35,550 bases of DNA from Minisyncoccota bacterium (GTDB lineage Bacteria; Patescibacteriota; Minisyncoccia; Minisyncoccales; GBS-2). Location of the stretch: the NCBI GenBank assembly GCA_938023415.1, contig CALHEE010000031.1, positions 1 to 35,550 on the forward strand, written 5' to 3'. Made by a program: the position numbers and the translations under genes. Below the pieces are notes generated by a model, which saw only the letters and a program-made list of their open reading frames with translations, had not been told where the DNA came from and did no database searches. Of the stretch, positions 14,222-27,747 are shown piece by piece (within the stretch, counting starts at the first letter, position 1; each line of letters starts with the position of its first letter).

Positions 14222-15433
14222 ATGAAAGTCAAAACCGATCCTCAAAAGATTGAAGAGATTTTAAGTAGGGGAGTAGAGAAGATTATTGAGAAAGAAAGCT
14301 TACTTAAAAAATTAAAATCTGGCCAAAGATTAAAGATAAAATTAGGCATTGATCCTACCGCTCCTGATCTTCATTTAGGGAATGCGGTTGTTTTATGGAA
14401 ATTAAAAGAATTTCAAGATCTAGGCCATAAAATTATCTTGATTATTGGCGATTTTACTGCCCGGATTGGTGATCCTTCTGGGAGATTATCTTTGAGAAAG
14501 GCTTTGAGTGAAAAAGAGATTAGAGAAAATCTAAAAGCTTATCGTTTTCAGATCGGAAAAATTTTAGATCTCAAAAAGACAAAAATTGTTTTTAACAGCC
14601 GTCATTTATCTCGTCTTGACCTTTCTAAGCTTTATCGGATTTTCTATTTTTTCACCGTAAATCAGCTCTTAGAAAGAGAAATGTTTCAACAAAGAATGAA
14701 ATCAGGAAAACCAATTTTTTTACACGAATTTTTCTACCCCATTTTACAAGCTTACGATTCGGTTGTGGTAAAAGCGGATGTAGAAGTGGGCGGAAGCGAT
14801 CAACTTTTTAATATGCTAATGGGAAGAGAACTTCAAGTTTTTTTTCACCAACCACCTCAAGAAATTATCACCATGAAAATTCTCGTAGGTACCGATGGTA
14901 AGCAAAAGATGAGTAAAAGTTTTAATAACTACATTGGAATAAACGATCCACCTGGGGAGCAATTTGGAAAGCTAATGTCAATTAAAGACGAAGCCATTCC
15001 CCAATATCTTGAATTGTGTACCCGTTTACCGATAGAAGAAATTAAAAAAGATACTCAACTTCTTGAAAGCAGGCAGATCAACCCTCGCGACCTGAAGAAA
15101 AAATTGGCCAGAGAAGTAGTCTCTTTGTATTACGGAAAAAAGATAGCTCTCAATGCCGAAAAAGAATTCGAGAGGGTTTTCCGAGAAAAAAAACCTCCCT
15201 TAAAGATGCCAGAAATTAAACTCAAAGAAAAATATTTAAATATTTTAGAGTTATTGGTAAAAACAAAGATGGTTAATTCTAAAAGCGAGGCAAAAAGATT
15301 AATTTCTCAAAAAGCAGTTGAAATTGATGGACAAACAAAAGAAAATTGGGCAGAGGTAATTGAAATCAAAAAAAAGATGGTCGTCAAGGTAGGGAAAAGA
15401 AAGTTTGCAAAAATAAACCCCACCTTTAAATGA
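14222..15433 (+). CDS. tyrS: Tyrosyl-tRNA synthetase
   Basis: The 403-residue class I synthetase has the HIGH-type motif HLGN (residues 51-54) after LGIDPTAPDL. KMSKS lies near 229-233 and a C-terminal S4-type RNA-binding domain at about 340-400 (MVNSKSEAKRLISQKAVEIDG). It charges tRNA-Tyr in the cytoplasm. The stop codon TGA lies inside the loop of the terminator hairpin. There is no Shine-Dalgarno sequence. Confidence 0.96.
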   Translation: MKVKTDPQKIEEILSRGVEKIIEKESLLKKLKSGQRLKIKLGIDPTAPDLHLGNAVVLWKLKEFQDLGHKIILIIGDFTARIGDPSGRLSLRKALSEKEIRENLKAYRFQIGKILDLKKTKIVFNSRHLSRLDLSKLYRIFYFFTVNQLLEREMFQQRMKSGKPIFLHEFFYPILQAYDSVVVKADVEVGGSDQLFNMLMGRELQVFFHQPPQEIITMKILVGTDGKQKMSKSFNNYIGINDPPGEQFGKLMSIKDEAIPQYLELCTRLPIEEIKKDTQLLESRQINPRDLKKKLAREVVSLYYGKKIALNAEKEFERVFREKKPPLKMPEIKLKEKYLNILELLVKTKMVNSKSEAKRLISQKAVEIDGQTKENWAEVIEIKKKMVVKVGKRKFAKINPTFK

Positions 15434-15450
15434 GAAGTGGGGTTTATTTT
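15411..15450. terminator. Strong bidirectional terminator between tyrS and the acidic peptide gene
   Basis: A 13-bp perfect stem, AAATAAACCCCAC / GTGGGGTTTATTT (15411-15423, 15437-15449), has a 13-nt loop holding the tyrS stop codon. T-rich sequence lies on both outer sides, so it can end tyrS rightward and the acidic peptide unit leftward. Confidence 0.85.
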
Positions 15451-15469
15451 CAATCTTGGTAAATGAGAA

Positions 15470-15586
15470 CTATTCAAGCTCTTCTTCCTCTATGTAATCT
15501 GTCTCATCCATTTCTTCAGATTCGTCTATCTCATCGGTGTAATCTTCAGTTTCTTCTTCAATTTCTTCTTCGTCAAAATAAACCAT
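15470..15586 (-). CDS. 38-residue highly acidic micropeptide
   Basis: The frame ATG at 15586 to TAG at 15470-15472 encodes a peptide starting MVYFDEEEIEEETEDYTDEI and ending YIEEEELE. About 60% of residues are Asp or Glu, with no Lys or Arg. No membrane segment or Cys is present. It has its own consensus promoter, an 80-nt leader with two hairpins, and a strong terminator just after the stop, so it is probably expressed. I recognise no family. An acidic tail-like peptide could bind basic proteins or metal ions, but that is speculation. Confidence 0.6.
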   Translation of the reverse strand: MVYFDEEEIEEETEDYTDEIDESEEMDETDYIEEEELE

Positions 15587-15594
15587 GATTTATT

Positions 15595-15659
15595 GAAAGG
15601 TCATAATTTATTTTTCCGACCTTTCTTGGCCCAAAGGATAATTAAAAAATTTGGGCAAG
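15595..15659 (-). promoter_or_regulatory. Two-hairpin leader of the acidic micropeptide
   Basis: Transcribed leftward, the leader can form two hairpins. The first pairs CTTGCCCAAA (15659-15650) with TTTGGGCCAAG (15635-15625), with one bulged base. The second pairs GAAAGGTC (15625-15618) with GACCTTTC (15602-15595). The second ends 8 nt before the start codon, so it could influence translation. I know no riboswitch of this form. Confidence 0.55.
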
Positions 15660-15672
15660 ATTACTATCGCTA

Positions 15673-15700
15673 ATTATAAGAAGGCAAAAAAACTTGTCAA
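15673..15700 (-). promoter_or_regulatory. Consensus promoter of the acidic micropeptide unit
   Basis: On the minus strand, a perfect TTGACA (15700-15695) is followed after 16 nt by a perfect TATAAT (15678-15673). It lies just past the yebC stop, and initiation is expected near 15666. It is the only promoter in the window with both hexamers perfect at an acceptable spacing. Confidence 0.8.
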
Positions 15701-15712
15701 GAGTGAAATTTT

Positions 15713-16441
15713 TTATTCCTTGAGGTTGGAATAAATTTCCTGAACAGTGTCGCTTTCATCTAAAGCATCAAAAAGCTTCAAACAAGCTTCTTTTTCTTTT
15801 TCGCTCACCTGGACCGTCTCTTTTGGTTTCCAATCTAAACCAGCCGATTCAATTATTACTCCCTTTTCTTCTAGTTTTCTTTTTACCTTCTCTAACTCCT
15901 CTACTTTAGTATAAATGTCTAAGTTATCATTATACCAATAAAAATCTTCTGCCCCTGCTTCGATTGCAGCCAATTCTAACTCTTCTTTATTTTTAAAGTT
16001 TTGAGCTTTCCAATTGACGGTAATACACCCTTTTCTTTCAAACATCCATCTAATTGCCCCTCCTTCAACCAATTTTCCCTGATGCTGATTTAAAATTTGT
16101 TTTATTTCTGTAAGGGCCCGATTTTTATTATCGGTAATCCCCTCGATAATTATCGCTACTCCACCCGGACCATAAGCTTCGTAAATAACTTCTTCTAGTT
16201 TTTCTTTCTCCCCCCCTCCAACAGCCTTTTTGATTGCATTTTCAATATTTTCTTTTGGGAAATTATAAGTTCTGGCAGTTTCCAGAGCAAACCTGAGCTT
16301 AGGATTAGTTTCAGGATTTGCTCCTCCCTCCCTTACTGCAACCAAAATTAAACGGGCAATTTTTGCGAAAATTTGGCTCCTTTTTTTGGCGTTGGCCTCT
16401 TTCGTTTTTCGGACTGTTTTAGCGTGGCTATGTCCTGCCAT
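15713..16441 (-). CDS. yebC: YebC/PmpR family protein
   Basis: The 242-residue protein begins MAGHSHAKTVRKTKEANAKK. It contains AREGG-like VREGGANPETNPKLRFAL and GPGGVAIIIEGITDNKNRA, hallmarks of the YebC/PmpR family (TACO1 in mitochondria). The family has been described as DNA-binding regulators and more recently as translation factors that relieve ribosome stalling. The length is standard. The TAAACT box at 16456-16451 is 9 nt before the ATG, suggesting a nearly leaderless message. Confidence 0.93.
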   Translation of the reverse strand: MAGHSHAKTVRKTKEANAKKRSQIFAKIARLILVAVREGGANPETNPKLRFALETARTYNFPKENIENAIKKAVGGGEKEKLEEVIYEAYGPGGVAIIIEGITDNKNRALTEIKQILNQHQGKLVEGGAIRWMFERKGCITVNWKAQNFKNKEELELAAIEAGAEDFYWYNDNLDIYTKVEELEKVKRKLEEKGVIIESAGLDWKPKETVQVSEKEKEACLKLFDALDESDTVQEIYSNLKE

Positions 16442-20647: not shown

Positions 20648-21232
20648 ATGAAGAAAAACGATTCTCAAAAAATTATTATTGAACAACTTTCTCAGGACTT
20701 AGAAGATTTAGTAAATTATCTCAAAGACCTGTGGCAGTTTTTGCCCATACCTATCCTCTATGTAAATCCTCTTTTTGTCATTCTTGATGCGAACCCAGCT
20801 TTAGAAAATTTCTTTGGAGTGAGGGCAATAGAAATAATTGGAGAAAAAATTGAGGTTCTTTTAGGAGAAAAACCAATTACTCAAGAAATCTTAGAGACTC
20901 TTTCGAAAGAAAAAAAGATAGAAAACAAAGAAATAGAAGTTTTTACCAGAAATGGGAAAAAGATAGTGAGTGTTTCAGCCAATAGTCGGGAGGACGAGAA
21001 GGGGAAGATTATTGGGTATTATTTTTTATTTCTTGATATTACCACCCAACAGGAACTTCGAGAAAAACTTGAGGAAAAAGTGAGAGAAAGAACAAAAGAG
21101 CTACAAGAAAAAATTGATGAACTTGAAGCTTTTCAAAAGCTTACCGTGGGGCGAGAATTGAAAATGATAGAATTAAAAGAAGAAATCGAGAGATTAAAAA
21201 AAGAATTAGAAAGGTCGAAAAAAGAAAAATAA
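20648..21232 (+). CDS. PAS-domain coiled-coil signalling protein
   Basis: The 194-residue cytoplasmic protein has an N-terminal helix and then a PAS domain (about 30-140) with IPILYVNPLFVILDANPALE and the closing YYFLFLDITTQQE. A signalling helix (LEEKVRERTKEL) leads to a tail containing LTVGRELKMIELKEEIERLK. There is no kinase, cyclase or receiver domain. The same tail type ends the HAMP receptor two genes on. It probably relays ligand or redox state through coiled-coil contacts with the HAMP receptor or kinase; that is inference. Confidence 0.75.
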   Translation: MKKNDSQKIIIEQLSQDLEDLVNYLKDLWQFLPIPILYVNPLFVILDANPALENFFGVRAIEIIGEKIEVLLGEKPITQEILETLSKEKKIENKEIEVFTRNGKKIVSVSANSREDEKGKIIGYYFLFLDITTQQELREKLEEKVRERTKELQEKIDELEAFQKLTVGRELKMIELKEEIERLKKELERSKKEK

Positions 21233-27601: not shown

Positions 27602-27747
27602 AAAATTATCAGCAACTTAATTGACCAAGCTTTTTAAAAAAATAAAATTAAATAAAGGTCGGATAAAACTAGAGTAAAATTTTTCTTGTCTAAACCTTTC
27701 TGCTTTTTGCTACTTTCTAAAGGTCTTTTAAGTTATCGTTAAACAGT

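Follow-up and report, generated by a model that had tools for sequence, protein, structure and literature searches.

An acidic mini-gene between yebC and tyrS

The window analysed here, a stretch of 35,550 nucleotides, belongs to a genome (G000) of 619 kb in 35 contigs that is 97% complete. On the minus strand of the yebC–tyrS interval lies a compact unit composed of a promoter, a hairpin-bearing leader, a 38-codon acidic frame and a terminator (Table 1), which confirms the self-contained transcription unit described in an earlier note on this DNA. The -35 element starts 13 bases beyond the yebC stop codon, and one arm of the terminator stem consists of the last codons of tyrS. The earlier note had given this stem 13 bp, one fewer than we count (15448-15412); the terminator itself is there, and it is absent from the output of the automatic scan. 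An Rfam search of the unit's DNA at both thresholds gave nothing above the gathering score, and the best match (E 0.043) fell on the terminator.

Table 1. Coordinates of the acidic unit, its neighbours and the 16S rRNA tails compared
Feature	Position	Strand	Basis or remark
tyrS (convergent neighbour; 3' end overlaps the terminator of the acidic unit)	14222..15433	+	PF00579
Intrinsic terminator, bidirectional, common to the acidic unit and tyrS	15412..15448	-	14-bp stem, then T
38-aa acidic ORF MVYFDEEEIEEETEDYTDEIDESEEMDETDYIEEEELE	15470..15586	-	translation; family comparison; dN/dS
7-bp perfect inverted repeat, AAAGGTC 15624-15618 / GACCTTT 15602-15596	15596..15624	-	read from sequence; could hide the motif
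Leader motif AAAGGTCG, 30 nt upstream of ATG	15617..15624	-	exact in 29/38 syntenic members
First leader hairpin (CTTGCCCAAA / TTTGGGCCAAG)	15625..15659	-	-8.7 kcal/mol; 3.5% of shuffles equally stable
-10 element TATAAT, 16-nt spacer	15673..15678	-	part of 12/12 sigma-70 match
-35 element TTGACA	15695..15700	-	part of 12/12 sigma-70 match
yebC (neighbour)	15713..16441	-	PF01709 + PF20772
16S rRNA of the window genome	L173, G000:C25:24127-25672	-	tail GGATCACTCAATTGA
Other 16S tails without CCTCC	L174, L176-L186, L188, L189, L191, L192, L197		order set

The promoter is fully consensus, as the earlier note had stated, and matches sigma-70 in the form TTGACA-16-TATAAT at 12 of 12 positions. Perfect TTGACA-N16-18-TATAAT sites number five in the 619-kb genome, that of the acidic unit included, and the reversed-pattern control gave none. 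One of the other four lies within an open frame, and three stand ahead of other frames: a 43-codon basic leader frame and, in our reading of the letters, a putative helix-turn-helix-like frame and a putative lipoprotein-like frame. At L111 (G000:C7:17253-17280, minus), a perfect promoter is followed by AAGGTC, a 43-codon very basic frame and a terminator-like stem, beyond which lies a gene that we take to be GreA-like; this arrangement is possibly an attenuator. Given its promoter, the acidic unit would be transcribed constitutively and at a high level.

Conservation and coding status of the frame

Patescibacteria rank among the nearest named genomes by the window's YebC. YebC was found in all 60 genomes compared, namely that of the window, a same-family genome and, for the remainder, genomes of the same order, including a Candidatus Nealsonbacteria genome (G005). 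The DNA downstream of yebC was examined in 59 of them, leaving out G014, which offers only a contig-end fragment. Between yebC/ruvC and tyrS/pbp, an acidic frame of 18-106 codons is present in 38 of the 59 genomes, the window's included. In the other 21, no acidic ORF next to yebC passes the thresholds applied, and at least six of these have a member elsewhere or below the filter (G003, G048, G044; G009, G007, G019). TTGACA precedes 37 of the 38 syntenic members and the exact TTGACA-16-TATAAT precedes 28. Among all 56 members the exact 16-nt form occurs in 45, no exact promoter has a 17- or 18-nt spacer, and a terminator-like stem lies downstream of 53. These counts retain weak members: L042 (18 aa, with basic residues), L027 (no promoter found), and L047 and L055 (no motif).

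A search for promoter plus leader motif found a match in 171 of 247 genomes of the order, against a single match over all rows for the reversed pattern. Among 20 loci picked from these matches, 18 encode a member, some of them away from yebC, and the remaining two encode a DUF5320 protein and groES; since the search pattern requires both promoter and motif, these 18 loci are not independent evidence for either. The pattern was matched in 3/3 own-order, 1/6 other-class and 5/136 other-phylum genomes, and with a wider gap in 8/8 own-order genomes and 29/134 others of the class. These comparisons show that the acidic mini-protein is encoded by an independent gene, distributed order-wide in Patescibacteria, with a near-invariant promoter and usually its own terminator.

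The same-family relative Parcubacteria bacterium GBS-2 (G001) carries an 18-codon frame, MLFEEELEEEIEEEEIEE, with the same promoter, the same leader motif and its own terminator, all within about 160 bases. There the unit lies directly upstream of pbp on the same strand, with the terminator between, as would befit a leader peptide or attenuator for the next gene (pbp or tyrS). We consider such a role very improbable because tyrS is convergent in the window and the unit occupies other places in G003, G048 and G044; members of up to 106 residues also speak against it.

The window peptide contains 6 Asp and 17 Glu among its 38 residues, no Lys, Arg or His, and has a computed charge of about -23, in agreement with the earlier description of an Asp/Glu-rich frame free of basic residues. 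In eight of ten pairs of related members dN/dS ranges from 0.07 to 0.49, with dS saturated in the other two, and the pooled pN/pS is 0.34; in the nucleotide alignments of the ten pairs, 17 of 17 gaps are multiples of three. The earlier note had proposed to seek the frame downstream of yebC in relatives and to compute dN/dS, and had made its claim depend on the frame staying intact in them. The frame is kept beside yebC in 38 of the 59 genomes and is open in GBS-2, and ratios below 1 together with in-frame indels mark it as coding. The note had also left the product as a peptide, a regulatory RNA or both. Because the frame is under purifying selection and its indels come in threes, a peptide is at least one product, and a product that is RNA only is disfavoured. 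The case that the acidic frame is a coding gene is therefore strong. A chance open frame in a GA-rich stretch, which low complexity and GAA repeats might suggest, is refuted by dN/dS and conservation and further opposed by the N-terminal pattern described below, leaving it a negligible probability. Part of the coding signal reflects selection for acidity alone, since the tail is of low complexity, and for the same reason homology among members is partly a matter of position and motif.

A leader motif and the context of translation initiation

Of the two leader hairpins in the earlier note, the 5' one recurs in place, as hairpins of unrelated sequence lie between the -10 element and the motif in many relatives; the second is not conserved. 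What is conserved in the leader is a short motif absent from that note, AAAGGTCG. Besides the exact copies, close variants (AAGGTC, AAAGTCG, GGGTCG) occur in seven more syntenic leaders, giving 36 of 38, and L047 and L055 have neither motif nor variant. The chance level of AAAGGTCG in 100-base leaders is well below 1%, as calculated from 38 copies in 619 kb. The motif mostly lies 20-45 nt from the ATG; at larger distances a stable hairpin usually stands between the two, and where the motif is farther from the -10 element, a hairpin often precedes it.

The 255-nt transcript is more stable than its dinucleotide shuffles (z -3.5), to which the terminator and a helix hiding the start codon (15602-15615 with 15575-15587) contribute. 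The minimum-energy fold favours this helix over the 7-bp inverted repeat that could hide the motif. The two overlap on the minus strand at 15575-15624 and are mutually exclusive in this species. They possibly form a switch, and no equivalent of the 7-bp repeat was seen in the leader of the same-family relative GBS-2.

The motif also precedes ordinary genes. Inspection of all 38 copies of AAAGGTCG in G000 placed 24 upstream of an ATG at distances of 17-52 nt, counting copies 10-60 nt ahead of an ATG whose frame runs for at least 50 codons; the acidic frame of the window is too short to be among the 24. The antisense control gave 1/38 and random positions in the same stretches 16% (p 6e-11). In an unselected sample of G000 (230 kb, 215 genes), AAGGTC ends 15-35 nt before a start 13 times against 1.2 expected (p 2e-10), with one occurrence each for the antisense and reversal controls. 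In a second genome, G033, AAGGTC precedes 0 of 165 genes (0.6 expected), which argues against a universal initiation signal and for unequal usage between families; G033's own acidic unit (L014) carries the motif.

Copies of AAAGGTCG in the window lie at 15617-15624 (minus), 21210-21217 (plus) and 27654-27661 (plus). Some leaders hold two copies (L149, L153). At L145 (G000:C1, minus) a copy stands ahead of an 11-codon frame, MNFLVEGEINW, possibly another mini-gene, and at L169 (G000:C28, minus) one copy falls in rRNA-like sequence, presumably domain V of 23S rRNA.

These leaders bear on the reading that the RNA is the main or a dual product, in which the frame would be secondary and the 5' hairpin with AAAGGUCG might, for example, titrate an RNA-binding protein as a decoy. 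The motif or a variant in 36 of 38 leaders, a hairpin conserved in place and not in sequence, and the occurrence of the motif in other leaders are in its favour. Purifying selection on the frame with indels in threes is not, and a motif that precedes ordinary genes resembles a leader signal and not a stand-alone RNA; we hold an RNA as the main or a dual product to be distinctly unlikely.

Across the class, the leaders of khpA (PF13083) contain GGTCG within 110 nt upstream at 24 of 30 loci (L271-L300, the best matches among 107 genomes with a match) and [AG]GTCG at 27 of 30; exact AAAGGTCG lies within 130 nt upstream at 14 of 30. For GGTCG the control leaders of yebC and tyrS gave 2/30 and 0/23, respectively, the khpA leaders being richer in G+C than these controls (0.38 vs 0.27), and in the khpA leaders themselves CGACC occurs in 1/30 and the reversal GCTGG in 2/30. 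The presence of [AG]GTCG in khpA leaders suggests autoregulation or a shared reader. Of 59 sites read, 21 were flagged as acidic peptides, and khpA and DUF5320 are among the recurrent others. By our own reading, further recurrent genes at those sites would be groES behind a CIRCE-like repeat, nusA, Hsp20 and an MscS-like protein. The DUF5320-like genes (L221, L249, L260, L261, L262) have in common a dyad (TATGGGTATATACTCATA or close to it) that overlaps the -10 element and is followed by AAGGTCG; the dyad looks like a conserved operator.

The acidic unit does not resemble a Shine-Dalgarno-led gene, with a purine-rich element near the ATG and CCUCC in the 16S rRNA. A 4-base Shine-Dalgarno-like core precedes 4 of the 56 member ATGs, the window's ATG not among them, and the 16S rRNA of the window genome ends in GGATCACTCAATTGA, without CCTCC. 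All 18 readable 16S tails of the order, the window's included, are without this anti-Shine-Dalgarno sequence. In the phylum sample, where only 12 of 145 genomes gave a readable tail, two of two from other parts of the class also have no CCTCC, and in eight from outside the class the corresponding stretch reads ACCTCC or differs from it by one or two bases. Loss of CCUCC is already on record for Absconditabacteria, Campbellbacteria and Wolfebacteria genomes, as outlined in PMC10783764. Organisms lacking the anti-Shine-Dalgarno, which that outline extends to Flavobacteriia and others, are described there as having few Shine-Dalgarno sites (PMC10783764). The present genomes share with them the absence of CCUCC from the 16S 3' end, and differ from them, as far as that outline goes, in that a AAAGGUCG-like leader element recurs before many genes.

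In the sample of G000 (L223-L232 and the window), a -10-like hexamer lies 4-8 nt before the start 25 times against 2.4 expected. Such a position is the mark of a leaderless mRNA, and many mRNAs of G000 are probably leaderless. Leaderless starts are enriched in G033 as well (13 vs 2.35), and Shine-Dalgarno-like cores in the G000 sample number 16 against 5.7 expected. Translation of the acidic unit itself would not rely on Shine-Dalgarno pairing.

Pairing of AAAGGUCG with 16S rRNA was rejected, as no complement is conserved across the order. The candidate complement UCGACCU recurs in many genomes; it was rejected because the 16S rRNA of the window genome did not show it and because it presumably lies in helix 42 of the 16S head. 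A GUCGAC stretch shortly past the 16S 3' end is capable of weak pairing with the motif, but we place it in the spacer.

Composition and putative role of the mini-protein

Members range from 18 to 106 residues and consist of a short hydrophobic N-terminus and an acidic tail of variable length. Their median composition is 49% Asp/Glu and 4.5% Lys/Arg/His, which suits a nucleic-acid mimic. Averaged over members, the first 12 residues have 22% Asp/Glu and 40% hydrophobic residues, and the remainder has 60% and 10%, respectively. The N-terminal consensus is close to M-I-Y-E-E-K-I-L-T-P-F-V-x-Q-[DE]-E-E. Of the 38 syntenic members, 28 show a hydrophobic pair and then an acidic or Gln-acidic step (shuffled mean 4.8), and 20 of 29 other members share this hydrophobic pattern (shuffled mean 4.3); the patterns were written after the syntenic members, with the other 29 also already seen, so that the test is descriptive. 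Pfam and NCBIfam gave no meaningful match for the window peptide or seven relatives, and a PDB sequence search with the window peptide gave none at E up to 1. AlphaFold2 predicted a single long helix (pLDDT 76), which adds little given its low pTM of 0.37.

We infer that the gene encodes a highly transcribed polyanionic mini-protein whose N-terminus docks on a partner and whose tail competes with nucleic acid, and give this reading a probability of roughly 0.4. The protein would be mostly disordered. Its short hydrophobic N-terminus would dock on a conserved cytoplasmic partner, for which RNA polymerase, the ribosome and RNA-binding proteins such as KhpA/KhpB are candidates. The polyacidic tail, free to vary in length, would act much as the acidic tail of the RNA polymerase delta subunit does, contending with nucleic acid for a basic surface. 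Several observations argue against this docking model. The same-family member, at only 18 residues, is short for both a docking motif and a tail; the window protein has lost most of the N-terminal consensus, keeping little beyond M-[IV]-Y and an acid run; the predicted single helix runs counter to a disordered chain; and 21 of the 59 genomes lack an acidic ORF next to yebC that passes the thresholds. A protein acting by charge only would have no specific partner. It would solubilise or buffer as a polyanion, serving as counter-ion to polyamines, Mg2+ or basic proteins, its N-terminus being only start-codon context. Tail length that varies widely (18-106 aa) at a kept composition and the 18-residue relative would fit such a protein, but the N-terminal hydrophobic pattern is far above shuffles, including in members not used to see it, and we regard action by charge only as unlikely.

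The Bacillus RNA polymerase subunit delta (RpoE) has a polyacidic disordered C-terminal tail that works with RNA polymerase. With 60% Asp/Glu after residue 12, the members resemble this tail. Unlike delta, the window protein has no folded HARE-HTH-type domain, being too short and without a Pfam or NCBIfam match, and hence does not belong to the delta family. Also unlike delta, the whole acidic protein amounts to a tail plus about 12 residues, and its association with RNA polymerase is only putative. The available outline of PMC7749165 implicates delta in RNA polymerase recycling. CrsL of actinobacteria, as summarised in PMC12709188, is a very small, intrinsically disordered interaction partner of CarD. 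The acidic mini-protein, likewise very small and presumably disordered, resembles it by description only and comes from a different phylum. The putative resemblance to the delta tail and CrsL is thus one of working style. Titles and abstract openings that our searches of the open PMC literature brought up hold no account of the acidic peptide or the AAAGGTCG motif.

A long shot links motif and protein: in this class, whose 16S rRNA has lost the anti-Shine-Dalgarno, AAAGGUCG might serve instead as a signal for initiation or stability that KhpA or the ribosome reads, with the acidic protein as its most conserved client, an RNA mimic that feeds back on the reader. The khpA leader itself carries the motif.

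In summary, frames of 18-50 residues are commonly discarded by automatic gene callers, so that this order-wide gene, whose promoter is among the strongest-looking in a genome of 0.6 Mb, could easily escape notice. The gene itself would be a surprise to specialists of these bacteria; its biochemical role is what we infer. Should the peptide reach the abundance that its promoter suggests, it would belong to the core machinery of these minimal bacteria. The leader motif may reveal how some start sites are marked in bacteria that have no anti-Shine-Dalgarno, and if so, the question of translation initiation in the candidate phyla radiation would become directly testable.
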